In this document: piece by piece, positions 1,715 to 44,626 of the stretch | Numbering within the stretch: position 1 is the stretch's first letter | Layout: each line of letters starts with the position of its first letter | Source: Clostridiales bacterium | GTDB lineage: Bacteria > Bacillota > Clostridia > Oscillospirales > Acutalibacteraceae | Direction of reading: 5' to 3' | Assembly (NCBI GenBank): GCA_024697575.1 | Contig: JAILFM010000109.1 | Span: 1-44,626 of the forward strand | DNA: 44,626 bases | Notes under the pieces: generated by a model | Databases searched by the model: none | What the model was told of the DNA's origin: nothing | What the model saw: the letters and a program-made list of their open reading frames with translations, nothing else | Translations under genes and position numbers: made by a program

Positions 1715-2926
1715 ATGAATATTGAAAATAACGCATATTTTACCGTTTCCGGATTAAATCTGTATATCAAATCCGTTATTGACAGGGATATAAATCTCAA
1801 TACTGTTTTTCTTAAAGGTGAAATTTCAAATTTTACCAATCATTTCCGAACGGGTCATTTCTATATGACCATTAAGGATGAACATTCTTCTATAAAAGCC
1901 GTTATGTTTAAAGCAGCTAATCAGCGTTTAAGATTTATGCCCGAAAATAATATGAGTGTTATCCTTAAAGGCAGAGTATCGGTTTTCGAGAGGGACGGGG
2001 CCGTTCAATTTTATATTGATGATATGCAGCCCGACGGTGCGGGAGCTTTGGCAATAGCTTTTGAACAGCTTAAAAAAAGGCTTTCTAAAAGAGGATGGTT
2101 TGACGAGTCTCACAAAAAGGAGCTTCCGGCTTATCCCGAAAAAGTCGGTGTTATCACTTCGGATACCGGCGCTGCCGTTCACGATATAATCAATGTGATT
2201 TCAAGGCGATATCCTCTTTGCGAAATTGTTTTTCATCCGGTATCTGTTCAGGGCGACGGGGCGTCAAAGCAAATATCCGACGCATTGGATTTGATGAATT
2301 CTCTTAACTGCGCGGATGTTATTATTGTTGGGCGCGGCGGCGGTTCAATGGAAGATTTGTGGGCATTTAATGAAGAAAATGTCGCTCAGGCAGTCTATAA
2401 CAGTCATATTCCCGTTATCAGTGCCGTCGGTCATGAAACGGACTTTACAATCTGTGATTTTGTTGCGGATAAGCGAGCGCCGACACCCTCCGCAGCGGCG
2501 GAAATCTGTGTTCCCGATGTAAGCGAATTGTTAAATAAAGTTAACAGCTTCAACAGATTTTTCGTTAATAAAGTGCAAAGCCAAATCTGTTTGATGAACG
2601 AAAAAGTCGCTGCTTTGGAAAAAAATATAAATCTGTTTAACCCTGTTCTGGTTTTAAAGCAAAAAAAGCAATACTTAACACAGATTGACTCTGTTTTAAA
2701 TAACAGTTATTTAAACATAATTAAATCGGAAAAAAACAAAATCGCCGTTCTTGCCGCTACGATTAATGCAAGAAATCCGCTTGATATTCTCTCAAAAGGC
2801 TACTCTGTTGTCTTAAAAAATGGCTTTCCGGTTTCCGATGTCTCTTCCCTTTCTGTCGGTGAAGAAATTGATATTTCATTTTCAAACGGCAAAGCAAGGG
2901 CAAAAATAACAGATGTGACGGTATAA
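1715..2926 (+). CDS. xseA: Exodeoxyribonuclease VII large subunit
   Basis: YFTVSGLNLYIKSVIDRD...VFLKGEISNF, GRGGGSMEDLWAFNEE, SAVGHETDFTICDFVADKRAPTPSAAAE. Confidence 0.97.
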   Translation: MNIENNAYFTVSGLNLYIKSVIDRDINLNTVFLKGEISNFTNHFRTGHFYMTIKDEHSSIKAVMFKAANQRLRFMPENNMSVILKGRVSVFERDGAVQFYIDDMQPDGAGALAIAFEQLKKRLSKRGWFDESHKKELPAYPEKVGVITSDTGAAVHDIINVISRRYPLCEIVFHPVSVQGDGASKQISDALDLMNSLNCADVIIVGRGGGSMEDLWAFNEENVAQAVYNSHIPVISAVGHETDFTICDFVADKRAPTPSAAAEICVPDVSELLNKVNSFNRFFVNKVQSQICLMNEKVAALEKNINLFNPVLVLKQKKQYLTQIDSVLNNSYLNIIKSEKNKIAVLAATINARNPLDILSKGYSVVLKNGFPVSDVSSLSVGEEIDISFSNGKARAKITDVTV

Positions 2927-2931
2927 TTTTT

Positions 2932-3129
2932 ATGGAAAAATTCGATTATGAAAAAGCTGTTAACAGGCTTGAAGAAATAGCGAAACTGCTTGAAAAAAGT
3001 GATTTGACACTTGAAGAAAATATTAAGCTTTACACAGAGGGTATGAAGCTGTGTAAAAAATGCAGTGACGAAATCAGCAAGGCTGAGCTGAAGATAACTC
3101 AAATTAAAGCTTTGTCTGAAACAGTGTAA
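2932..3129 (+). CDS. xseB: Exodeoxyribonuclease VII small subunit
   Basis: FDYEKAVNRLEEIAKLLEKSDLTLEENIKLYTEGMKLCKKC; follows xseA. Confidence 0.95.
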   Translation: MEKFDYEKAVNRLEEIAKLLEKSDLTLEENIKLYTEGMKLCKKCSDEISKAELKITQIKALSETV

Positions 3130-3140
3130 AAAGGCTTAAA

Positions 3141-4046
3141 ATGACAAAAGAAAAATTCAATCTGAAATATAACGAATATCTTGATTTAATCAATCATAAA
3201 CTTGAATTGATTTTTGATTCCGACTCTTTCCGCTTTCGCAAAAGCGACGGTTTGGAAAGAATGCTTGAATGCATGAAATATTCGGTTTTTTCAAGCGGAA
3301 AAAGAATAAGACCTGTTTTATGCCTCGCATTCTGCGATGCTTGCGGCGGCGATATACTGTCAGCATGTGATGTTGCTTGTGCAATTGAAATGATTCATAC
3401 TTATTCGCTTATACATGATGATTTACCCTGCATGGATAATGATGATTTCAGGCGAGGCAGACCGTCTTCTCATAAACAGTTCGGCGAAGCTGACGCTTTG
3501 CTTGCCGGTGATTCGCTTCTGACTTTCGCTTTTGAAGTTGTTTGCGTTTCGCAGTTTTCTGATGATATTAAATGCAAATGTATTTTTGAAATTGCAAAAT
3601 CCGCCGGCCCTTCCGGTATGATTGCCGGTCAGGTTATGGATTTACAAAATGAAAGCCGACTTTGTGATATTGACCGTATAATGCAAACAGATAACCTTAA
3701 AACAGGCGAATTGATTTGTGTTTCATCGAAGGCTGGCTGTATTATTGCCGGCGCTGACACTGATAAGATTAATTCGGCTGATATTTTCGGGCAAAAAATC
3801 GGTCTTGCTTTTCAGGTTGTAGATGATATTCTTGATGTGACTTCAACCTATGAAGAGTTAGGTAAGCCTATAGGCAGTGACATTAATAATAACAAGCAGA
3901 CCTATGTTTCGCTTCTCGGTTTAAAAGAAGCAGACGGCTTTGCAAAACAGTTAACCCGGGAAGCTGTGCAGGCTCTTGATATTTTCGGCGACAGAGCGGA
4001 TTTTCTTAAGGAGCTGGCTTTTACATTATGCGCCAGGAGAAAATAA
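3141..4046 (+). CDS. ispA: Polyprenyl (farnesyl/geranyl) diphosphate synthase
   Basis: GKRIRP, HTYSLIHDDLPCMDNDDFRRGRPSSHK, FQVVDDILD (two Asp-rich motifs). Confidence 0.95.
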   Translation: MTKEKFNLKYNEYLDLINHKLELIFDSDSFRFRKSDGLERMLECMKYSVFSSGKRIRPVLCLAFCDACGGDILSACDVACAIEMIHTYSLIHDDLPCMDNDDFRRGRPSSHKQFGEADALLAGDSLLTFAFEVVCVSQFSDDIKCKCIFEIAKSAGPSGMIAGQVMDLQNESRLCDIDRIMQTDNLKTGELICVSSKAGCIIAGADTDKINSADIFGQKIGLAFQVVDDILDVTSTYEELGKPIGSDINNNKQTYVSLLGLKEADGFAKQLTREAVQALDIFGDRADFLKELAFTLCARRK

Positions 4047-5899
4047 TGCAAAACGATTATAGAATTCTTGAGACTGTTAAAAGCCCTGAGGATGTCAAAA
4101 AATTAGATGATTCATCTTTAGAAGAGCTATGCCGCGAAATACGCAAAAAAATAATCTCAACAGTTTCCAATAACGGCGGTCATCTTGCGTCAAATCTCGG
4201 TACGGTTGAATTGACGGTTGCTCTTCATAAATGCTTTAACTGTCCTGATGATACGCTTGTTTTTGATGTCGGTCATCAGTCTTATACACATAAGCTTTTA
4301 ACCGGCAGATTTGACAGATTTGATTCATTAAGAAAAAAAGACGGAATTTCCGGCTTTACAAGACCGGATGAAAGCAATTTTGATTCTTTTTATGAAGGTC
4401 ATGCCGGTGTTTCCGTTTCACAGGCTTTGGGTGTTGCGGCAGCCAATAAAATCAAAGGAAATGATAATTATTCAATAGCTGTTCTGGGTGACGGCGCGCT
4501 CGGTAACGGTATGATATATGAGGCTCTTAATCACGCTGGCTCCTGCAGGACGAATCTTATTGTTATTCTTAATGATAACGAAATGTCTATAAGCGAAAAT
4601 GTAGGCGCAATGGCTCGATATCTTGCTGTTATCAGATCCAATCCGGATTACTACAGATTAAAAGCAAATACCGAAAAAATGTTAAGCCGTCTTCCTCTTG
4701 GCGGAAAAGAAATCTCACATTTGTTTTTCAGTATGAAAACAGCTTTGAAAAATATTATTTATTCTTCGTCTTTTTTTGAGGACCTTGGTTTTCGATATAT
4801 AGGGCCTATTGACGGCCATAATATAAACACATTGACCGGGGCGCTTATGAGCGCCAAAATGCATAAAGGCCCCGTTCTTTTACATGTTAACACAGTAAAG
4901 GGTTACGGTTATGAATTAGCTGAAAATCATCCCGAAAAATTTCACGGGATCTCGGAATTTGATGTAGAAACGGGCGAAGCTAAAAATGTTTCAGACTCTT
5001 TTTCTTCCGAATTCTCAAAAATAGTCTGTAAATTTGCAGAAAATGATAAACGAATTTGCGCTGTTACAGCGGCAATGTCTATAGGAACAGGACTTGAAGA
5101 TTTTTCAATAAAATTCCCCGACAGATTTTTCGATGTTGGTATTGCCGAAGAACACGCAGTAACTTTTGCATCGGGTCTGAGCGCAAAAGGTATGGTGCCT
5201 GTTTTTGCCGTTTATTCCACTTTCCTGCAAAGAAGTATTGACCAGGTAATTCATGATGCGTCACTTCAAAGGCAAAAGATGATAATTATGGTTGACAGGG
5301 CGGGCTTTGTCGGCGAAGACGGCGAAACTCATCAGGGTCTGTTTGATATTCCTCTTTTAAAATCTATTCCCGACATAACCATTTATTCTCCTTCAGATTA
5401 TAACCAACTTGAAGCCGCATTTAAAAATGCCGTTTATTTTGATAAAAATCTTGTTGTTATACGATATCCGAGAGGCGGAACCGGCGAAAAACCTGAACCG
5501 CTCGACGGTAAATCAGATAGTATAAATTTTTTCAAAAAGACCGGATCTAAAACCGTCGCTGTTTCTTACGGTCGTCTGTTCAATACCGTGAGAAGTGTTA
5601 TTGAACACGCCGGTTTGAATATTGATGCTTTACAGCTGTTTAAAATTAGCCCGATAGAAAAAGAATTATTTGATATTATCGGTTCTTATGATAATGTTAT
5701 ACTCTTTGAAGAGGGAATGAAAATCGGGGGAATAGGTGAAGAAATCGGCTTTGAACTGTGTTCCCGCGGTTTTAAAGGAAATTTTAAACTTTTTGCAGTT
5801 TCAAATTCTTTTGTTTCACACGCAAGTGTTTCACAGCAGCTTAAGCAATTTGGATTGGATGAGGATTCAATATCACGGGATTTAATCGGGTATAATTAA
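4046..5899 (+). CDS. dxs: 1-deoxy-D-xylulose-5-phosphate synthase
   Basis: GHLASNLGTVELTVALH, DVGHQSYTHK, GDGALGNGMIYEALNHAG; start chosen at ATG 4046 behind AGGAGA. Confidence 0.97.
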   Translation: MQNDYRILETVKSPEDVKKLDDSSLEELCREIRKKIISTVSNNGGHLASNLGTVELTVALHKCFNCPDDTLVFDVGHQSYTHKLLTGRFDRFDSLRKKDGISGFTRPDESNFDSFYEGHAGVSVSQALGVAAANKIKGNDNYSIAVLGDGALGNGMIYEALNHAGSCRTNLIVILNDNEMSISENVGAMARYLAVIRSNPDYYRLKANTEKMLSRLPLGGKEISHLFFSMKTALKNIIYSSSFFEDLGFRYIGPIDGHNINTLTGALMSAKMHKGPVLLHVNTVKGYGYELAENHPEKFHGISEFDVETGEAKNVSDSFSSEFSKIVCKFAENDKRICAVTAAMSIGTGLEDFSIKFPDRFFDVGIAEEHAVTFASGLSAKGMVPVFAVYSTFLQRSIDQVIHDASLQRQKMIIMVDRAGFVGEDGETHQGLFDIPLLKSIPDITIYSPSDYNQLEAAFKNAVYFDKNLVVIRYPRGGTGEKPEPLDGKSDSINFFKKTGSKTVAVSYGRLFNTVRSVIEHAGLNIDALQLFKISPIEKELFDIIGSYDNVILFEEGMKIGGIGEEIGFELCSRGFKGNFKLFAVSNSFVSHASVSQQLKQFGLDEDSISRDLIGYN

Positions 5900-6702
5900 T
5901 GAGCGATTTATTAAGGCTTGATGTCGCTGTCTTTGAGCGGGGATTGGCTCAAACGCGCGAAAAGGCAAAGGCTGTTATAATGTCCGGCCTGGTTTATGTT
6001 AACGGAATAAAACAAATGAAGGCGGGAAACTCGGTAAAACCGGATGATATTATTGAGGTTCGCGGCTCGGTCAATCCTTTTGTCAGTCGCGGCGGGCTGA
6101 AGCTTGATAAAGCATTAAAAGTCTTTCCTATCAACCTAAATGGGCTTGTTTGTATGGATATCGGAGCTTCAACCGGCGGTTTTACCGATTGTATGCTTCA
6201 GAATAACGCGGCGAAAGTCTATTCCATTGACGTCGGTTACGGTCAGCTCGCCTGGAAGCTGAGAACCGATGAACGGGTTATCAATCTTGAAAGAACAAAC
6301 TTCAGGTATGTCACACGAGAACAAATTCCCGATGAAATTGATTTTGCCAGCTGTGATGTATCTTTTATCTCATTGACAAAAATTTTACCTGTAATGTTCA
6401 GTCTGCTTAAAGACGGCGGTGAATCTGTTTGTCTTATTAAACCTCAGTTTGAAGCCGGCAGAGAAAATGTTGGCAAAAAAGGGGTAGTACGCGATAAAAA
6501 TGTACAGGTTGAAGTAATCAAACGGATTACCGCCTTTGCTGTTGAAACCGGATTTGAATTGAAAGACGTTTCATATTCACCTATTCGCGGACCTGAAGGA
6601 AATATTGAATTTCTGATGTATATAAAAAAATGCAATTCCGATAATCCACCTGTTGATTTTGATTTCAACTCGTTGGTTGATAATGCGCATTCTTCTGTGT
6701 AA
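5899..6702 (+). CDS. tlyA: TlyA family RNA methyltransferase (S4 + FtsJ-like)
   Basis: RLDVAVFERGLAQTREKAKAVIMSGLVYVNG (S4), FVSRGGLKLDKAL, DIGASTGGFTDCML. Confidence 0.92.
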   Translation: MSDLLRLDVAVFERGLAQTREKAKAVIMSGLVYVNGIKQMKAGNSVKPDDIIEVRGSVNPFVSRGGLKLDKALKVFPINLNGLVCMDIGASTGGFTDCMLQNNAAKVYSIDVGYGQLAWKLRTDERVINLERTNFRYVTREQIPDEIDFASCDVSFISLTKILPVMFSLLKDGGESVCLIKPQFEAGRENVGKKGVVRDKNVQVEVIKRITAFAVETGFELKDVSYSPIRGPEGNIEFLMYIKKCNSDNPPVDFDFNSLVDNAHSSV

Positions 6703-6716
6703 AGGCGATTGATAAT

Positions 6717-7565
6717 ATGAAATTTGCCGTAATACCAAACCTGACACGCACCGGCGCTCAGGAAGTTGTTGCTGATGTGTGTGAAAAAATTGAAAAATTC
6801 GGGTCTGAATTTGTTTTACCGGATTACACAGCTGATAATCTTTTAATAAAGAATGCCGTATTTTATCCGGAAGACAGGCTTTTTATTGATTGTGACGCTG
6901 TTATTGCTATCGGCGGCGACGGTTCAATTATTCATGCAGCGAAAAATGCCGCAGTTTTCCATAAGCCGGTTTTAGGCATTAATGCAGGTCATCTTGGCTT
7001 TATGTCCGGACTGGAAAAAAATGAAACTCAGCAGCTGGTAAATCTTATTTCAGGAGAATTTACCCTTGACAGAAGACTTGTGCTTAAAATAGAAATCTTC
7101 AATGGGGACAAAACCATTTATTCCGATTTTTGCATTAACGACTGCTATTTCACAAATAATACGCACGAAAGGCTGTCTGAAATCGATGTGGCGCTTAACG
7201 GGTGCAAATTTAAATCTTACCGATGCGACGGTGTAATAATCGCCACTCCGACAGGGTCAACAGCTTATTCGCTTTCTGCCGGCGGTCCCGTTGTCGATCC
7301 CGAACTTCAAAGCATTATTTTAACTCCGGTCAGTCCTCATTCTTTATTTAACCGCTCAATAATTTTCAGACCGGATTGCGAATTGTCGGTTTTTTCTTCT
7401 ACAAGTGAGAATATTATGGTCAGCGCGGACGGGGGAGGAGCCGCTTCTTTTTCCGACGGTGCTTATGCAAGAATCAGCGCGGCTGATTTTACTGCGGATT
7501 TTATCAGGATTAAATCTGATAATTTTATTGATGTTTTATATAAAAAACTATCCGAACGAAGGTGA
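6717..7565 (+). CDS. nadK: NAD(+)/NADH kinase
   Basis: AIGGDGSIIHAAKNA, GINAGHLGFM, DGVIIATPTGSTAYSLSAGGP. Confidence 0.95.
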   Translation: MKFAVIPNLTRTGAQEVVADVCEKIEKFGSEFVLPDYTADNLLIKNAVFYPEDRLFIDCDAVIAIGGDGSIIHAAKNAAVFHKPVLGINAGHLGFMSGLEKNETQQLVNLISGEFTLDRRLVLKIEIFNGDKTIYSDFCINDCYFTNNTHERLSEIDVALNGCKFKSYRCDGVIIATPTGSTAYSLSAGGPVVDPELQSIILTPVSPHSLFNRSIIFRPDCELSVFSSTSENIMVSADGGGAASFSDGAYARISAADFTADFIRIKSDNFIDVLYKKLSERR

Positions 7566-7577
7566 GGGGTGATTTTG

Positions 7578-8027
7578 GTGAAAAAAGACAGACACGACGC
7601 AATTCTGAATATAATTAACACTCACCTTGTGTCAACTCAGCTTGAGCTTGCTCAGTATCTTAAAAAAGAGGGGTATGAAACAACTCAGGCAACCTTGTCG
7701 CGCGATATTCGTCAGATGGGTCTTGTAAAAAAATCAGACTCAGCCGGTCGAAGCTTTTATTCCACTTCTCAACGTGCGGAAATCAGCATTTCCGGTAAAT
7801 ATATCAGCGTTTTTAAACAATCCGTTGTCAGTGTTGATATTGCGGGTCACCTTCTTGTTATTAAATGCTTTGCCGGTATGGCTCCCGCTGCATGCGCTGC
7901 TCTTGATTCAATGAAATGGGACGGAATTGTCGGAACAATAGCGGGCGATGACACTATTTTTGTTGCATGCCGAACGGAAGAATTTGCGGCAGAGATGGAA
8001 TATAAAATCGGGCAGCTTATCGACTGA
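7578..8027 (+). CDS. argR: Arginine repressor ArgR
   Basis: KKDRHDAILNIINTHLVSTQLELAQYLKKEGYETTQATLSRDIRQMGLVK; GTG 7578 is well spaced from GAGGGG. Confidence 0.93.
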   Translation: MKKDRHDAILNIINTHLVSTQLELAQYLKKEGYETTQATLSRDIRQMGLVKKSDSAGRSFYSTSQRAEISISGKYISVFKQSVVSVDIAGHLLVIKCFAGMAPAACAALDSMKWDGIVGTIAGDDTIFVACRTEEFAAEMEYKIGQLID

Positions 8028-36230: not shown

Positions 36231-36262
36231 GAGTAATATTAATATTGAAAAGAGTATGTGTT

Positions 36263-38500
36263 ATGAATAACTCTGAAACGCAGTCAAAGAGCGGTTTGTC
36301 TCGTTATATTAATATGCGTTCGGCCTGGGCGCTCGCAGTCGGAACAAGCGTCGGGTGGGGTTCACTTGTTGTTACCTGTAATACTTACCTAAAAAATGCC
36401 GGACCGCTTGGAAGTGTGCTCGGCATAATAATAGGCGCAATTGTTATGCTGATTGTATGCCGTAATTACGGTTATCTTGCAAATAAATACCACGACGCAG
36501 GCGGTGTTTATTCCTATACAAAAAATGTTTTCGGCTATGACAGGGCTTTTCTTGTTTCATGGTATTTGAGCATGGTTTATATTTCCATGTTTTGGGCCAA
36601 CGCAACATCTTTACCTTTATTTGCCAGATATTTTTTCGGCGATACATATCATTTCGGCTATCTTTACTCAATATTTGATTATGATGTTTATGCCGGTGAA
36701 ATGCTTCTTACTCTTGCGGCAATTGTGCTCGTTACAATTCTGTGCGTTAACAGCAAAACAATGACAGCTCATGTGATGACCGTTCTGGTAATTGCTTTTG
36801 TTATAGGTATTATTGTTTGCTTTGTTGTTTCACTGTTCGGTGGAATCAATTCAGGTGTAAATATAAGCCCTGCTTTTGCGCCGGATAATCTGCCTTTTGC
36901 CCAGGTAATACACATAACATTTATTTCCCCCTGGGCTTTTATCGGATTTGAAAATATATCACATTCAGCTGAGGAATTTAAATTCAATATTAAAAAGCTT
37001 CATAAAATTCTTGTTATTTCAGTGATTACAACAACTCTGCTGTATATATTCGTAACTTTGCTTTCAATAACGGCTTATCCGCCGGAATATGGTAACTGGT
37101 TTGAATATATTCAAAATCTCGGTAATGAAAAGGGCTTGCGTGCTCTGCCGGCTTTTTACGCCGCAAGCCGTTATCTCGGTAACACAGGTGTGGTTATTCT
37201 ATCTGTTTCACTTCTGTCGCTCGTCCTCACAAGTCTTATTGGAAATATGCGCGCTCTGAGCAGACTTTTTTATTCACTCTCTAAAGATGACATTTTGCCT
37301 TCGCTTTTTTCAAAGCTTAACAAAAAGCGTATTCCGTCGCGCGCTATGCTTCTTGTTTCTGCTATTTCGCTTGCCATCCCGTTTTTCGGCAGAACAACGA
37401 TTGGCTGGGTTGTTGATATAACGACTATAGGTTCAACGCTTATCTATGGCTTTGTTTGCGCGGCGGCTTTCAAAACTGCAAAAAAAGATAATTGTAAAAA
37501 AGTTAAAATTACCGGATTGATTGGGTTTGTTACCATGGTAATATTCGGTATTTATTTGCTTTTACCCGGAGTATTCAGAGGTAACAATCTTAAAAATGAA
37601 ACTTATTTTCTGCTGATTACATGGTCAATTCTCGGGTTTGTTTATTTCAGGGGAATTATTGCTAAAGACCACGCAAGGCGTTTCGGTAAGGCAATAATCG
37701 TATGGATTGCAATGCTTTCACTTGTTGTTTTAATGTCGGTTATTTGGACTAATAATATTGAAGAAGCGACGACAAAATCCGCTATATCGGGTGTTAAGGA
37801 TTATTATGAGGGTACTGCCGGCTCCGAAATTCTTGCTTTGGATGAAGAAGATTTTATAAATCAAACTCTGGAAAATATTCACAAAACCGATCTGATGATT
37901 AATTTTGTTGTAATTGCTTTGTTTATTTTTGCGCTTTTTGTTATGCTTAACAATCACTTTTCTATGAAGAAATGGGAGCAAAAAGCCATTAATGAACGCG
38001 ATGCCGCAAAAATTGCGGCTTACAAAGACCCACTGACCGGTGTTAAAAGCAAAACGGCATATTCTGAGGCGGAAACCCAGATTGAAGAAATGATTTCTTC
38101 AGGAATAACAGCGCCGTTTTCCGTTGTTGTCTGTGATATTAACGGGTTAAAATTTATTAATGACACTTTGGGTCATAAGGCCGGTGATGAATATATTCAA
38201 AAAGGTGCAAAACTGATTTGCGAGCTGTTCAAACACAGCCCTGTGTACAGAACCGGCGGTGACGAGTTTGTTATAATACTTTCTGAAATAGATTATCTTA
38301 ACCGAAGCGCAATTATGAAAAAGTTGCATGATTTGTCGGTTGATAATATCGGTAAAGACGGTGTTGTTATATCCGGCGGTATTTCAGATTTTGAGCCCGG
38401 CGTTTCCAAAAACTATAAGACTGTCTATGAAAAAGCGGACGCACTTATGTATGAAGAAAAGAAATTACTTAAAGGCTTAGGCGCTGTAACGCGTTTATGA
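36263..38500 (+). CDS. APC-superfamily amino acid permease fused to a C-terminal GGDEF domain
   Basis: Permease N-terminus SAWALAVGTSVGWGSLVVTCNTYLKNAGPLGSVLGIIIGAIVM; C-terminus DPLTGVKSKTAY...VVCDINGLKFINDTLGHKAGDEYI...YRTGGDEFVIIL. ATG 36263 preferred over TTG 36245. Confidence 0.9.
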   Translation: MNNSETQSKSGLSRYINMRSAWALAVGTSVGWGSLVVTCNTYLKNAGPLGSVLGIIIGAIVMLIVCRNYGYLANKYHDAGGVYSYTKNVFGYDRAFLVSWYLSMVYISMFWANATSLPLFARYFFGDTYHFGYLYSIFDYDVYAGEMLLTLAAIVLVTILCVNSKTMTAHVMTVLVIAFVIGIIVCFVVSLFGGINSGVNISPAFAPDNLPFAQVIHITFISPWAFIGFENISHSAEEFKFNIKKLHKILVISVITTTLLYIFVTLLSITAYPPEYGNWFEYIQNLGNEKGLRALPAFYAASRYLGNTGVVILSVSLLSLVLTSLIGNMRALSRLFYSLSKDDILPSLFSKLNKKRIPSRAMLLVSAISLAIPFFGRTTIGWVVDITTIGSTLIYGFVCAAAFKTAKKDNCKKVKITGLIGFVTMVIFGIYLLLPGVFRGNNLKNETYFLLITWSILGFVYFRGIIAKDHARRFGKAIIVWIAMLSLVVLMSVIWTNNIEEATTKSAISGVKDYYEGTAGSEILALDEEDFINQTLENIHKTDLMINFVVIALFIFALFVMLNNHFSMKKWEQKAINERDAAKIAAYKDPLTGVKSKTAYSEAETQIEEMISSGITAPFSVVVCDINGLKFINDTLGHKAGDEYIQKGAKLICELFKHSPVYRTGGDEFVIILSEIDYLNRSAIMKKLHDLSVDNIGKDGVVISGGISDFEPGVSKNYKTVYEKADALMYEEKKLLKGLGAVTRL

Positions 38501-38520
38501 TTTTTCGGGAGAATGAAAAA

Positions 38521-39984
38521 ATGGATCGTATTTCAGTTGATCAAATGAATTTTGTTGACTCAGTCGGCAGAACCCGTATTTTTAACGGGATGAATATTGA
38601 TGATAAACTGATTGGTGATGTTTTTCGTTATAATCTTGATGAAGATTTTTTTGAAAAATATGTTTCGAACGGTTTCAATCTGATTCGCCTCGCTGTTCAA
38701 TGGGCGAATATTGAGCCTTGTCCCGGCGTGTACAATGAAACCTATCTTATGTCTATTGATAATATTTTTCGCCTTGCTGAGCGTTACGGCGTTTATATTC
38801 TTCTTGATATGCATCAGGATTTATTTTCCGGTTTTAATGGGGTAGGGGGCGGAGACGGCGCGCCCGATTGGGCATGCCTGACAGATGGAATTAAACCCAA
38901 ACCATACAGATTTGTTTGGGCAGAAGCGTATATGTTCGGTAAGTGGGTTCATAACTGCTTTGACCATTTCTGGAATAATGACAAGTTTGACGGTCAGGGA
39001 TTGCAAGACCGGTATACCGATTTATGGCAGATGCTTGCGAGCCGTTACGGTGAAAGTCCGGCTTTGTTCGGCTATGATTTGTTTAATGAGCCTGCGCCGG
39101 GTTCAAGTGCAAAAAAAATGATTTTACGCCTTGCTTTAAGCGGAGTTCGGCAGGCTTTGACGAGCAAAAAAATCAAGCGTTTATCTATTTTGTCGGCACT
39201 TTTTAAGAAAGATTCAAAACTTCTTCTTGATTCTTTTCCCGGCGATGTTATACGGGATATTGTTAATAAGATTGATAAATATGAAAAAGAATTTGATTTA
39301 AAATATTACTCTCCGTTTCTCAATAAAATTGCCTCATCAATCCGCAAAGTAACACCCGACGGTATCTTTGTGATTGAACAGCCGTATTTTTGTAATATCG
39401 GTGTCAGGTTTTCAGCTGAGCCGATAGAAGTTAATGGCAAACGCGAACCTTTGCAGTGTTTCGCTCCTCATGCTTATGATATTACTGTTGATACGCCGCT
39501 ATACAAATATGCCGATACAGGACGGGTTAAGGCGTTTTTTAATGAGATGCGAAACTCTCAGCTTCGTTTAAGTGTACCTGCAATTGTCGGCGAATGGGGA
39601 GGGTGCAGTGATAATAAAGATACTTCATGGTTCGGCCATGCCGATGAACTGCTTGATTATTTTGATTCTAATCAATGGGGGCAGCTTTATTGGGATTATC
39701 ACGGCGATGATATGGATGCGCCTTTAATGCAAATGCTGGGTCGCACTTACCCCGTAGCTGTTGCGGGTGATATATTGCGCTATGGCAGAGACTCCGGTCA
39801 TCGTACATTTACTCTCGAATATGAATCGGATGGTGTGAATGAAACCGTTATTTATGCGCACTGTCCGTGTACTGTTAACTGCAATGGAAAAGCGCGTATT
39901 ATAAAATCTTACCATGACGGCGCATCTCTGATTGGTATTGAAGCCGGCAAAGGAAAAACAGCAGTTGTTTTGACATTCGATTAA
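38521..39984 (+). CDS. GH5 glycoside hydrolase, endoglycosylceramidase-like
   Basis: GFNLIRLAVQWANIEPCPGVYNETYL, VYILLDMHQDLFS, DLFNEPAPG (acid/base), IVGEWGG (nucleophile). ATG 38521 behind GGGAG. Confidence 0.8.
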   Translation: MDRISVDQMNFVDSVGRTRIFNGMNIDDKLIGDVFRYNLDEDFFEKYVSNGFNLIRLAVQWANIEPCPGVYNETYLMSIDNIFRLAERYGVYILLDMHQDLFSGFNGVGGGDGAPDWACLTDGIKPKPYRFVWAEAYMFGKWVHNCFDHFWNNDKFDGQGLQDRYTDLWQMLASRYGESPALFGYDLFNEPAPGSSAKKMILRLALSGVRQALTSKKIKRLSILSALFKKDSKLLLDSFPGDVIRDIVNKIDKYEKEFDLKYYSPFLNKIASSIRKVTPDGIFVIEQPYFCNIGVRFSAEPIEVNGKREPLQCFAPHAYDITVDTPLYKYADTGRVKAFFNEMRNSQLRLSVPAIVGEWGGCSDNKDTSWFGHADELLDYFDSNQWGQLYWDYHGDDMDAPLMQMLGRTYPVAVAGDILRYGRDSGHRTFTLEYESDGVNETVIYAHCPCTVNCNGKARIIKSYHDGASLIGIEAGKGKTAVVLTFD

Positions 39985-39999
39985 ACCGGAGTGTACGGT

Positions 40000-42138
40000 A
40001 TGAGTTTGATTCAAAAAAGCAAAGATACTTTGAATAATTTCAAAACATATTGGAAAGCGCCTTCAAAGGGAAATTATATGTCCTTTCGCGAGGTGTTTGC
40101 TTATTCGGTAGGCGGTTTCGGCGCATATTCTGTGTTTACAATGGCACAGGCTCTGTTGCTTTCCACAACCAATGTAATTATCGGCAACACCATAGGCATT
40201 CAGCCTATGCATATGTACTTAATGTACCTAATTTCGGTTATTTCCAACATACCGTTGACAATGCTTCGCGCAAATATGGTTGATAATGTTAAATATAAAG
40301 AGGGAAAGTACCGCCCGTATCTGCTGAGGATGGGAATACCGACTGTCTTAATATCTCTGCTTTTTGTATTTACGCCTTATTCGGTCGTGCCGTATCTTAT
40401 TCGCTGCATTCTGATTTTTATTTATAACTTCGGTTTGCAGTTTTTCTACAACTTTTTTTATGACGCATATGAAAATCTGATTCATGTTCTTTCGCCGAAT
40501 TCGCAGGAGCGAACAAATGTAACGGCGATAAAGAGCATGATTTATTCGCTGTCACCAACAATCACTAATTTTGTTACGCCGTTGATTGCCTCAAAGGTTG
40601 CAAATGGTAATATGTATGATTTGCGTGTTTACCGCTGGCTTTATCCGTTCATTTCCGTTGTCGGGGTTATTCTGATTGTTGTTGTTTATGCAAACACAGA
40701 AGAAAAAATAGTGATTGCAAAAACGCATCCGATGAAAATTAAATTCACTGATGCGCTCAGAGAAGTGGCTAAAAACAAGTATTTCTGGATTATTTCACTT
40801 GCAGGTTGGCTCGGATTTTTGGAAACCTGCACATATGTGGTACTTCAGTGGCTTTATAACTATGCCCATCTTTGCACTGCCGAGCAGTATTCATTAATCA
40901 CCCTGATTCGCGGTACGGCATACACCTGGGGTATGATTCTTGCGCCTTTCGCCGTTAAGCGCTGGGGCAAGAAAAAGGTTTTGATAGTTACAAATGTTGT
41001 GAATATTTTCTTTCTGGCGCTTGTATATCCGCTCATGGGTTCAATCTGGACTGTTCTTATGTGTATGTATATGAACTCCGTAGCCGATTCTTTTATCCTT
41101 GTTCTTAACCCTGCTATTCAGGCTGATATTCGAGATTATCAGCAGTATAAGAGCGGCGAAAGGATTGACGGAATGTTCGGAGCCGTCGCTATGATCGGCT
41201 CATTTATAACAATGGCAACAAGTTCGGTACTGCCCGCCGTCTATGAAAAATACGGTATCTATTCAGGCAACGGTTATGAAAATATGTATGATGTGCTTTA
41301 TAACACGGATGTGCTTTTTAAGCTTGTCGGTGTTCTGGTGATTCTTTCCGCTGTAGGTGCCGCGCTGAATGTTATACCGTATTTTTTCTATGATTTAACC
41401 GAAGCAAAACAGAAATGCATTATAAAAATTCTTCAGTTACGGGCAGTAATTGAAGATTACGGCAACGGTGTTAAGAATGACTCGGATATAACTGAAACAG
41501 TAGCATTCATTCGGGAGGCAAAAAACTGCGTTGACGCTGTTTCTGCCGGTTATAATTATAGATATAAACAATCCGACAAACTGTATAAAAAATCAAAAGA
41601 TGTGAACGAAAACTATGAAATTTCCAAAGCGTTACTGAATGAGCTGAATCGTTATTCATCACCTGTGGAAAAAGCCAAGCTTAATGAATCGATACGGTTT
41701 GCAAATGCAGGTGTAGAAGGAATATTTGACATAAGTAACAGCATTCTTGAAGAAGCAAAATCCTTACCATCCGGAACTAATCAGGAACGCCTTATCCGGA
41801 AGGAAAAGATTGCGTCTGCAAAGCTTGCTCTCCGCTGTAAAAAAGCTGCGCTAAAATACTATCCGGACGGGTTGACTGTATTTGATGAAACGCAGCTGAA
41901 TGAACTTTATGAAGAAGAAAAATCACTTGCCGAGAAGAAAAACGCGCTGCTTCGAGAAAAAGCAGTCAAAGCAAAAATCAACGGAGTAATTGCTTCTCAG
42001 AAAGCTGTGACCCGCAATATTAAAACGCAGCAAAAAAAGTATCAACAGTATTTGGAAAGCACAAAGATACTTCGTGACGCTCAGAAAAACATTAAACAAG
42101 CTGAAAACTATAAAAAATTCGCAGAGAAACCTTACTGA
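40000..42138 (+). CDS. GPH/MFS-type transporter with long charged C-terminal extension
   Basis: YSVGGFGAYSVFTMAQALLLSTTNVIIGNTIGI, VDNVKYKEGKYRPYLL; Lys/Glu/Ala-rich helical tail after the last TM. ATG 40000 preferred over GTG 39991. Confidence 0.8.
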   Translation: MSLIQKSKDTLNNFKTYWKAPSKGNYMSFREVFAYSVGGFGAYSVFTMAQALLLSTTNVIIGNTIGIQPMHMYLMYLISVISNIPLTMLRANMVDNVKYKEGKYRPYLLRMGIPTVLISLLFVFTPYSVVPYLIRCILIFIYNFGLQFFYNFFYDAYENLIHVLSPNSQERTNVTAIKSMIYSLSPTITNFVTPLIASKVANGNMYDLRVYRWLYPFISVVGVILIVVVYANTEEKIVIAKTHPMKIKFTDALREVAKNKYFWIISLAGWLGFLETCTYVVLQWLYNYAHLCTAEQYSLITLIRGTAYTWGMILAPFAVKRWGKKKVLIVTNVVNIFFLALVYPLMGSIWTVLMCMYMNSVADSFILVLNPAIQADIRDYQQYKSGERIDGMFGAVAMIGSFITMATSSVLPAVYEKYGIYSGNGYENMYDVLYNTDVLFKLVGVLVILSAVGAALNVIPYFFYDLTEAKQKCIIKILQLRAVIEDYGNGVKNDSDITETVAFIREAKNCVDAVSAGYNYRYKQSDKLYKKSKDVNENYEISKALLNELNRYSSPVEKAKLNESIRFANAGVEGIFDISNSILEEAKSLPSGTNQERLIRKEKIASAKLALRCKKAALKYYPDGLTVFDETQLNELYEEEKSLAEKKNALLREKAVKAKINGVIASQKAVTRNIKTQQKKYQQYLESTKILRDAQKNIKQAENYKKFAEKPY

Positions 42139-42145
42139 TTAAATC

Positions 42146-42186
42146 GAGTAGGAGGGGGATCGAACCTCTTACCTCTTGAATGCCAT
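42146..42186 (-). pseudogene. Partial 3' half of a tRNA, tRNA-Ala(GGC)-like
   Basis: Reverse complement ATGGCATTCAAGAGGTAAGAGGTTCGATCCCCCTCCTACTC: anticodon loop, 3' anticodon stem, T-arm (one mismatch), acceptor 3' strand. No 5' half and no CCA. Confidence 0.6.
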
Positions 42187-42392
42187 CGGGTTCAAAGCCT
42201 TGAAATGATTGGATTTATTTGCAAATACTTGAATTATTACCATTTTTTGATGACAATTTGCTTGCCGATTATTAAAATAATCACAATCATTATTTTCAGT
42301 TTCAAGTAAAAATCAAGTAACGCCTTTTTCATTGTCGGCATTTTTGAGCAGACTAGTATCCTATACGTTTGATTTTTTGAGTTACCATTTGA

Positions 42393-42470: not shown

Positions 42471-42842
42471 ATGAAATCATTGTTTGAACAGATTGGCAGC
42501 ACCCACACGCAGCAGGGCGATTATTATCTGCCGGATCTCAAATTACCACCCGAAGAAGAGCGTCCCGTCGGCGTGTGGGGCCAGCGCAGGCTGCGCTATC
42601 TCCGGGAACATCGTCCGATCCTCTATACCAACCTGAAGACCAGTGGTCAGCTCCGTTCTCACCTCGCCGACATTGAGAAACAAGCCAACGCTCTCTTCCT
42701 TCGGTTAGTCAAAGACTATGCCGCCTTCGAAGACGTCACCGAGCAACTCAAGGCGGAACAGCCTATGGAGTGGGTGCGGAGGATGAATGGAATCAAGGCG
42801 AGAGTGACCGAGGCAATAAATAGTCAACTGGTATTGGTGTAA
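42471..42842 (+). CDS. tnpV: TnpV-like transposon-encoded protein
   Basis: SLFEQIGSTHTQQGDYYLPDLKLPPEEERPVGVWGQRRLRYLREHRPILYTNLKTSGQL resembles TnpV of Tn4451-type elements. Confidence 0.85.
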   Translation: MKSLFEQIGSTHTQQGDYYLPDLKLPPEEERPVGVWGQRRLRYLREHRPILYTNLKTSGQLRSHLADIEKQANALFLRLVKDYAAFEDVTEQLKAEQPMEWVRRMNGIKARVTEAINSQLVLV

Positions 42843-42937: not shown

Positions 42938-43795
42938 TTATTCTTCTGCGTTCAGCAAAACAGTGTTTTCTGGAAGAATCAAATTATCACTGAAAAAGAT
43001 ATACTCTTGAGCTCTTCTTGCACCATTAGCACTGTAGTAGATATCTATGTAGCTGCCTCTATATCCAGAATACAGTTTTGAAACGAGATCGCAAATATCA
43101 TAAGTAACGACCCATTTCCTCCGACACGCAGCAATTTGATCTCTAAGCGCCACATGATCGGCGTCAGAAAAAGCGTTTTTGTATAGTTGACCACCCTTGG
43201 CAACATAAGGTGGGTCAAAATTGATGAACGCTTTATAATAATGACATAACTCTGTCTGCAAAAAAGCTGATGCGTCTAAATTATACAAATCAATTCTATC
43301 TGAAAGCGCTGAAATAGCATTGATTTTTTTGATTAATTCCGCCCTATTAAAGCGAGCATCCATTTTATACTTTCCAGTTTGATCACGTTTTCCAATTACG
43401 CCACCATTAATGATCCCTGATACATTTGTTCTATTGAGAAAAAGAACTGCTTTTGCAAGTTCAAGTTCAGAATGGTTTTCTTGTTCAGAGTAAACCTTAT
43501 GCTGTCTGTCCCATTCATCAACTGTTATGGGAACAGTATTGACAAAGTCACACATCTGCTGCGTACTGTTAAGAACACAGTGCCAAAATGCATAAATAGC
43601 CGGATCATAGTCATTAATGACTATTCTCTTAACATCATCCTTCAGAAGTAATTTTAATGCTAATCCAGATCCCCCTGCAAACGGCTCAATGTATGTTTCA
43701 CCGAGCAAACCATTAATCTCAATAAGTGAGCGTATATAATTATATAGCTTTGCTTTTCCGCCTGGATAACGCAATGGTGATGGTGTGAGTGGCAA
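42938..43795 (-). CDS. D12-class N6-adenine DNA methyltransferase (Dam-like)
   Basis: SPLRYPGGKAKL, YIEPFAGGSGLAL, INDYDPAIYAFW, INFDPPYVAKG; TTG start behind AGGGAGGGG. Confidence 0.93.
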   Translation of the reverse strand: MPLTPSPLRYPGGKAKLYNYIRSLIEINGLLGETYIEPFAGGSGLALKLLLKDDVKRIVINDYDPAIYAFWHCVLNSTQQMCDFVNTVPITVDEWDRQHKVYSEQENHSELELAKAVLFLNRTNVSGIINGGVIGKRDQTGKYKMDARFNRAELIKKINAISALSDRIDLYNLDASAFLQTELCHYYKAFINFDPPYVAKGGQLYKNAFSDADHVALRDQIAACRRKWVVTYDICDLVSKLYSGYRGSYIDIYYSANGARRAQEYIFFSDNLILPENTVLLNAEE

Positions 43796-43823
43796 ATCTG
43801 TCCCCTCCCTTCATTGTATATTT

Positions 43824-44626
43824 TTACGCCCATTCTCTTGGGTTTATTTCATGGTAATGTGCAACTTTCAAGAAAAGTGTATGAAGCTCGTTGAAAAAAC
43901 GATCCACTTCAGACTGGCTAGTTGGATTATGGAGCCAGTACTTAAAAATCAGTTCAAAAAAAGTTCTATGATCGCAAAACATCTTTTTATTAAATGCTCG
44001 GGTTTTTCCTTTTGTAGATTCGTCGCTTTCCCTTAACCGCACCAATTCTTCTTTGAACTCTCTCACTGGTGTTTGAATCTGATTAATATAGTATGTTTTA
44101 CTATACCCTTTGTCAACTATAGTCCGTTGTATCCAAAACGGATCATCCTCAACGTATAATTGTTCAGCATAATCCAACAACAATTGTTCTGGTGATTTTC
44201 TTCCAGGGAGTGCGATTATACAATTTGACAGATTCGAGTTGTGATCTCCATCGAGGATACAAATAGATCGCATGGTAGTGCGCAGCAATTTATCATCATT
44301 AAAAATGCCCTTTAGGTTTTCTGCCCCGATGTTAGTATGTACCATGTGGAAAAACCGCCTTGCATTTCTGAATCCTTCAGACTCGTTATCATAATGGTTA
44401 AACAGCGTTTCTAGAATAGAGCGAGCCTCATCATCTTCCGTAAATAACGGAATCACTTTATCTGCAAAAATATCTTCGTGTGTTAGTGACTGGAGATGCA
44501 TCTTTATTTTATAAATATCAGGGTCTTCCATTTGGAAAACTGAAGTAACATTATCGATTAAGTATAGTACATTATCTTTTTTAGTAAGCATTTCTTCCAA
44601 GAGAGACATACTATGTGTTGTAAATA
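43824..44626 (-). CDS. OLD-like AAA/ABC ATPase with C-terminal TOPRIM-like domain, truncated by window edge
   Basis: Frame stays open to 44626; upstream codons read FTTHS before MSLLEEML (H-loop). TOPRIM-like: VIPLFTEDDEARSILETLF, HTNIGAENL, SICILDGDHN, CIIALPGRKSPEQLLLDY. Confidence 0.75.
   Translation of the reverse strand, partial: FTTHSMSLLEEMLTKKDNVLYLIDNVTSVFQMEDPDIYKIKMHLQSLTHEDIFADKVIPLFTEDDEARSILETLFNHYDNESEGFRNARRFFHMVHTNIGAENLKGIFNDDKLLRTTMRSICILDGDHNSNLSNCIIALPGRKSPEQLLLDYAEQLYVEDDPFWIQRTIVDKGYSKTYYINQIQTPVREFKEELVRLRESDESTKGKTRAFNKKMFCDHRTFFELIFKYWLHNPTSQSEVDRFFNELHTLFLKVAHYHEINPREWA

Follow-up and report, generated by a model that had tools for sequence, protein, structure and literature searches.

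A gene pair at the end of a contig

The stretch of DNA analysed here (the window; 44,626 nucleotides) is an entire contig of a Clostridiales bacterium, and the locus of interest lies at the contig end. Two co-directional open reading frames, separated by a gap of 28 nt, are present on the minus strand as an earlier sequence-only reading had described. Transcription runs from position 44626 downwards, with the ATPase/TOPRIM gene, of which a fragment is present, first and the methyltransferase (MTase) gene second. The features of the locus are:

43824 to 44624, minus strand: C-terminal half (266 aa) of an OLD-like ABC ATPase-TOPRIM protein, 5' end lost at the contig end (70% identity to residues 284-549 of the relative in locus L013)
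44610 to 44621, minus strand: ABC H-loop TTHS (H287 and S288 invariant in 47 homologues)
44421 to 44441, minus strand: TOPRIM glutamate motif TEDDEAR (E346 and D347 invariant in 47 homologues)
44241 to 44255, minus strand: TOPRIM DxD motif LDGDH (D408 and D410 invariant in 47 homologues)
43802 to 43809, minus strand: Shine-Dalgarno-like GGGAGGGG, 6 nt 5' of the MTase TTG (direct sequence reading)
42938 to 43795, minus strand: complete D12-class N6-adenine DNA methyltransferase of the PD-Lambda-5_B family, 285 aa, TTG start (PADLOC, 359.7 bits; PF02086; alignment with invariant motifs)
43670 to 43687, minus strand: MTase AdoMet-binding motif I, EPFAGG (E37, A40, G41 and G42 invariant; P38 and F39 nearly so)
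43205 to 43216, minus strand: MTase catalytic motif IV, DPPY (D194-P195-P196-Y197 invariant in 24 relatives)
42471 to 42842, plus strand, opposite to the pair: TnpV transposon gene

The sequence-only reading had called the MTase a Dam-like D12 enzyme. Membership of the D12 family stands (PF02086, 74.8 bits; cut-off 22) and the protein is Dam-like, but its score against the NCBI Dam model, 57.5 bits, is under the cut-off of 114.85. The best PADLOC model is PD-Lambda-5_B, which covers residues 1-279 and identifies the protein as a B-type methyltransferase of the PD-lambda-5 system; it also scores as MTase_II (292 bits). The closest solved structures by profile are an adenine-specific MTase (7m6b) and DpnM. 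In 60 close relatives of the source genome, the MTase clade was absent (best E 1e-11), which points to a recent acquisition or a sporadic occurrence of the module. An exact-DNA search of viral contigs gave no copy of the window element.

No Pfam model matches the ATPase fragment, and the sole PADLOC model that does so is HEC-04, weakly, at 23.6 bits. Relatives were gathered by an MTase search of genome contigs, and the gene upstream of the MTase was then examined. In these relatives, the upstream gene encodes a full-length protein of about 550 aa, for which HEC-04 is among the best models (50-71 bits). Alignment to these proteins places the start of the window fragment at the ABC H-loop and shows that the two acidic motifs of TOPRIM are present in it. 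Among 47 diverse homologues, down to ~20% identity, the Walker A, ABC signature, Walker B, H-loop, TOPRIM glutamate and DxD motifs are all invariant. Thus, the ABC motifs of the OLD family are complete in the full-length homologues, with only the H-loop visible in the window copy, and the C-terminal TOPRIM domain with conserved glutamate and DxD is found in the window motifs, in the 47 homologues and in the fold match to the Thermus scotoductus OLD protein (TsOLD) and the retron-Eco8 effector. The ABC-ATPase/TOPRIM call, which had been made from half a gene, is in this way upheld by its relatives. The AlphaFold model of the ATPase (pLDDT 84, pTM 0.57) has its best matches to the retron-Eco8 OLD effector, T. 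scotoductus OLD, PtuA and GajA. Because the TM-scores are low, about 0.3 over the whole chain at about 14% sequence identity, these matches support the fold class and the domain order and not close structural kinship. About eight distant ATPase-TOPRIM relatives in prophages (L139-L146; about 27% identity, up to 615 aa) have no MTase or PD-Lambda-5_A gene within the flanks examined. The ATPase fold is, therefore, not strictly MTase-dependent, and these proteins probably represent a different OLD context.

The sequence-only reading had also placed a transposon gene and a tRNA scar next to the pair. TnpV accounts for the former. Beside it, a stretch at 42140-42200 (minus strand) resembles the 3' part of a tRNA (GGTTCGATCC) and is possibly an attachment-site remnant, but an assembly search gave no second copy or intact tRNA partner, ARAGORN made no call, and its folding is no better than that of shuffled sequences and not tRNA-like. 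Further away, an unusual fusion of an amino acid permease (AA_permease_2) to a C-terminal GGDEF diguanylate cyclase domain is encoded at 36245-38500 (plus strand), and a GH5 cellulase-type gene and a gene for an MFS sugar transporter come next (38497-42138).

Partners of the methyltransferase clade

In 291 genomes of the same class, an ATPase-side search gave seven matches, all with the MTase adjacent. An MTase-side search of the same genomes gave 15 matches: six with the ATPase (window included), two with the ATPase and PD-Lambda-5_A, four with PD-Lambda-5_A and three without a partner, one of these at a contig edge and one a partial MTase. In this sample, the ATPase accompanies the MTase at least as often as PD-Lambda-5_A does. 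On viral contigs, the ATPase profile had the MTase clade next door at 36 of 49 loci, many of them near-identical. The pooled, non-redundant MTase loci (n=75), in which the ratio of partner types is biased because they were partly collected via the ATPase, comprise 41 with the ATPase only, 27 with PD-Lambda-5_A only, five with both and two with neither; in other words, the ATPase is present at 46, PD-Lambda-5_A at 32 and one or both at 73 of the 75 loci. The bias does not explain the near-absence of partnerless MTases. Adjacency is kept across layouts, i.e. ATPase-MTase, MTase-ATPase (L121, L206), divergent (L030, L034), convergent (L200) and PD-Lambda-5_A-MTase-ATPase (L179, L183). Because it survives changes in order and orientation, we suggest a functional link and not just a shared operon. 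The comparative sequence data thus support that the ATPase-MTase pairing is real and not due to chance; rare co-occurrence of the two genes, which the sequence-only reading had named as a finding that would refute it, is clearly contradicted by these counts.

PD-Lambda-5_A itself gave nothing significant against Pfam. In its AlphaFold model, the N-terminal domain is ParB/Srx-like (KorB, ParB, Noc and sulfiredoxin; best E 6e-4) and has an EGNRR motif, and the C-terminal domain is helical, with an invariant R and H. Independently, the RefSeq annotation of an E. coli member reads "ParB/Srx family N-terminal domain-containing protein". Enzymes of the ParB/Srx type can have nuclease and NTPase activity according to work cited in PMC10853773. 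An assignment of the helical C-terminal half as AbiV/HEPN-type was considered and rejected, as the matches are weak (E about 2). A variant of 615 aa (L018, 4143-5990) has an insert weakly resembling bacterial Ig-like domains, below the Pfam cut-off.

In the sisters of the window locus (L013, L014) as well as in L015 and L016, PD-Lambda-5_A, ATPase and MTase lie in a row, while L017 has the ATPase and MTase only; PADLOC confirms PD-Lambda-5_A as the third gene in L013, L015, L045 and L152. PD-Lambda-5_A was found neither in the window nor in the rest of the assembly, and the contig ends at the position that it has in L013-L016. The closest relatives encode all three genes, so the source organism may have a third gene past the contig edge. 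PD-Lambda-5_A is clearly missing from 41 of the 75 related MTase loci. In L014, its gene (2911-4314) has an in-frame stop giving two adjacent open reading frames (156 and 310 aa), with the ATPase and MTase intact; judging from this locus, PD-Lambda-5_A may not be needed alongside the ATPase. The sequence-only reading, with its two-gene picture, did not see that PD-Lambda-5_A can replace the ATPase beside this MTase clade or join it, nor that three genes are possible.

A maximum likelihood tree of 76 MTases requires at least 15 changes of partner label, compared to a mean of 28.5 for shuffled labels. For the ATPase alone there are 10 changes and for PD-Lambda-5_A alone 12, of which the starred branches force at least 8 and at least 10, respectively. 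With so few changes relative to the shuffled mean, the partners cluster on the tree and are thus inherited, yet repeatedly exchanged. MTase and partner distances are correlated (Mantel r 0.62 for the ATPase and 0.65 for PD-Lambda-5_A). Over 271 aa, L059, L061 and L066 have MTases that share 77-82% identity, with three unrelated partners: the L059 and L061 ATPases are 27% identical to each other, and the L066 partner is instead PD-Lambda-5_A. Nucleotide similarity of L059 or L061 to L066 is confined to the MTase gene.

Known systems and genomic context

PD-lambda-5, composed of the MTase and the A protein, was found experimentally to give broad anti-phage protection (Vassallo 2022, PMC9519451); its authors described it as a compacted RM+Abi system and cloned it in an mrr-deleted host (PMC9519451). 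The window locus shares with it the MTase family, with E. coli members of both versions scoring equally, at 404 bits, and the two versions have an E. coli prophage hotspot and the gene spacing in common and co-occur by their partner types at some loci. However, the window MTase adjoins an OLD-like ABC ATPase-TOPRIM and not the ParB/Srx-fold A protein. The nearest named family for the ATPase by sequence is HEC-04/IbfA, a fused ABC ATPase-TOPRIM reported to be protective against T4 and T5 (PMC12111858). The domain order is identical, but the similarity is only remote, and HEC-04/IbfA has been described as one gene that has no methyltransferase for a partner.

Gabija GajA, the retron-Eco8 effector and TsOLD (OLD classes 1-3) also have an ABC ATPase followed by a TOPRIM nuclease domain. 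Their partners are the GajB helicase, a retron RT/ncRNA or nothing, while here a D12 MTase takes this place. GajA models reach at most 59 bits against the ATPase relatives, and no GajB-type UvrD-like helicase adjoins them: the neighbours are the MTase and, in L013, also PD-Lambda-5_A and RM genes, and no such helicase is present in the window. Nor was a reverse transcriptase noticed among the neighbouring genes scanned. PARIS likewise pairs an OLD-type ATPase with a TOPRIM effector and is common in prophages, whereas ATPase and TOPRIM are one polypeptide beside an MTase here; AriA models are weak (up to 77 bits), the AriAB model gives at most 52 bits over part of the protein, and an MTase and no AriB was seen as the neighbour. 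With the MTase adjacent in 7/7 genomes, the ATPase also differs from the stand-alone OLD proteins of class 1. OLD/TOPRIM auxiliary effectors occur beside BREX (PMC12839542), and the recruitment of OLD-ABC nucleases next to adenine-methylation systems is thus common to both; by contrast, those effectors are add-ons to multi-gene loci, while the module here has no modification gene other than one small D12 MTase. Reviews of OLD proteins define classes by helicase, retron, PARIS or stand-alone context, with archaeal Cran1 as class 5, and name no methyltransferase partner (PMC10568477, PMC12796447).

Thus, the statement of the sequence-only reading that the partners differ from those in Gabija, PARIS and retrons is borne out. 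Its view of a defence-type module of two genes that belong together is supported as well. Its suggestion of a new arrangement does not hold for the MTase half, which is already part of PD-lambda-5 (360 bits) and has a known defence role, so that the locus is a variant of that system and not entirely new. New relative to the literature covered are the OLD-type ATPase-TOPRIM as a partner, the fact that it alternates or is stacked with PD-Lambda-5_A, and its presence in E. coli at the PD-lambda-5 site.

The relatives have an HpaII-type RM operon (L013), a NotI-type RM system (L019) or a SIR2-STALD gene (L017) as neighbours. Prophage members adjoin the integrase in Streptococcus phage PP758854, in E. 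coli Ec-RL2-1X (pair at 1414590-1417303 of NZ_CP066839) and in the icd/intE prophage of STEC388, and another setting is inside an ICE. In L202, an E. coli e14-like prophage at icd, the pair (5358-7997) is flanked by icd and intE. A site bordered by the P2-type replication endonuclease gene and the portal gene has canonical PD-lambda-5 (A 558 bits, B 404 bits) in E. coli MSI001, while the same P2-type prophage site in E. coli E110019 has the MTase (B 404 bits) and an ATPase-TOPRIM (pair at 3139020-3141580 of NZ_CP035751); the E110019 ATPase matches no PADLOC model at E 1e-25. The phiNP-type pair, one ATPase subtype alone, was found at ≥80% query coverage in 85 of 5,426 complete E. coli genomes (about 1.6%), where it is annotated merely as "AAA family ATPase" and "DNA adenine methylase". 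Judged by these sequence searches, the MTase + ATPase-TOPRIM variant is widespread.

A model for the module and its alternatives

Based on these data, we suggest that the locus is probably a methylation-linked anti-phage module of the PD-lambda-5 kind with an OLD-family effector. In this model, the D12 MTase would mark the DNA of its own host by N6-methyladenine at a fixed motif, and its partner would be the effector, in which an OLD-family ABC ATPase head, acting as a DNA- and ATP-driven sensor and gate, is fused to a TOPRIM nuclease. In the uninfected, methylated cell, the effector would be off. Upon sensing of unmethylated foreign DNA, or upon a block of the MTase by a phage, the ATPase would change state and the TOPRIM domain would then cut nucleic acid (phage DNA or a host target), stopping the phage or the infected cell. 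The MTase would be the constant module, and the effector could be swapped for the ParB/Srx-fold PD-Lambda-5_A, or both could be stacked. The model is supported by the match to the B-type MTase, the pairing, the invariant catalytic residues, the fold, the effector swap and the prophage, ICE and defence context. That two unrelated partners use the same MTase clade is most simply read as the MTase providing a self mark or licensed state and the partner being the effector, and the use of an mrr-deleted cloning host suggests that the PD-lambda-5 MTase modifies host DNA. The defence function of the ATPase version, methylation as its self mark and the substrate of the TOPRIM nuclease are inferred; the methylation-guided self/non-self discrimination proposed by the sequence-only reading is plausible for the window module. 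The effect need not be restriction because OLD-family TOPRIM proteins, such as P2 Old and PARIS AriB, can cut tRNA according to work cited in PMC13261556 and PMC12409363.

It is also conceivable that the ATPase does not read DNA methylation and instead guards the MTase or the host DNA-processing machinery, with phage anti-restriction proteins (e.g. DNA mimics) as the trigger, the TOPRIM domain killing the cell (e.g. by tRNA cleavage) and the MTase serving as bait or antitoxin. Such abortive infection has precedents within the shared OLD-like fold: in PARIS, AriA detects the DNA mimic Ocr, and the host tRNA is cut by AriB (PMC12839542), and inhibition of RecBC sets off P2 Old, which cuts a host tRNA (cited in PMC13261556); it would also suit the description of PD-lambda-5 as compacted RM+Abi (PMC9519451). 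However, a shared methylation read-out would explain two unrelated partners on one MTase clade no less well than a shared bait would, and we consider guarding somewhat unlikely. Direct restriction and guard-type abortive infection are not separable by sequence; OLD and TOPRIM proteins offer precedents both for DNA nicking and for tRNA cleavage. An orthodox type II-like RM system, in which the OLD-TOPRIM protein is an ATP-dependent restriction nuclease cutting the unmethylated form of the MTase's motif, would account for one MTase next to one nuclease-type gene and for the MTase_II score, and GajA, a class-2 OLD protein, is described as a sequence-specific nicking enzyme (PMC8136825). Yet the TOPRIM/ABC effector has no obvious specificity domain, and highly similar MTases pair with ATPases of 21-27% identity or with a ParB-fold protein, each of which would need a matched specificity. 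Orthodox RM is, therefore, improbable.

The two remaining alternatives concern the pair as such. Prophages and the vicinity of other RM genes are the setting of many members, as would be expected if an orphan MTase (e.g. for phage anti-restriction) merely adjoined a stand-alone OLD gene of class 1 at a hotspot of defence genes. The adjacency in 7/7 cases in an unbiased genome sample, the presence of one or both of two specific partners at 73 of 75 MTase loci, and the survival of adjacency through inversions and order changes largely refute such a coincidence, to which we give hardly any weight. Lastly, the window ATPase copy could be a broken remnant in the source organism: a TnpV gene lies alongside, and the N-terminal half of the ATPase was not found elsewhere in the same assembly (an AAA_15 match in the same genome, C43, was rejected as this half, as we read it from position and sequence as RecF beside RecR). 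However, the fragment runs off the contig end in frame, where the contig simply ends. Moreover, codon-position conservation of both genes against L013 (0.78/0.84-0.89/0.44) is of the functional-gene type and, at the level of sequence comparison, shows both to be under protein-level selection. A dead module is thus quite improbable.

The shared and swappable MTase links PD-lambda-5 with OLD-family ATPases and poses a common question for both, i.e. whether methylation or the MTase itself is the effector switch. Current detection tools label only half of the MTase + ATPase-TOPRIM loci, and the E. coli copies at the canonical PD-lambda-5 prophage site make a direct swap experiment possible. More tentatively, and with somewhat less than even confidence, we speculate that one MTase clade is a universal self-marking plug for which unrelated effectors, i.e. 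divergent OLD-type ATPase-TOPRIMs and a ParB/Srx-fold protein, are interchangeable or stacked. If so, the immunity would be modular and gated by methylation, no sequence specificity would be required of the nuclease itself, and OLD proteins would gain a sixth gene-context class.
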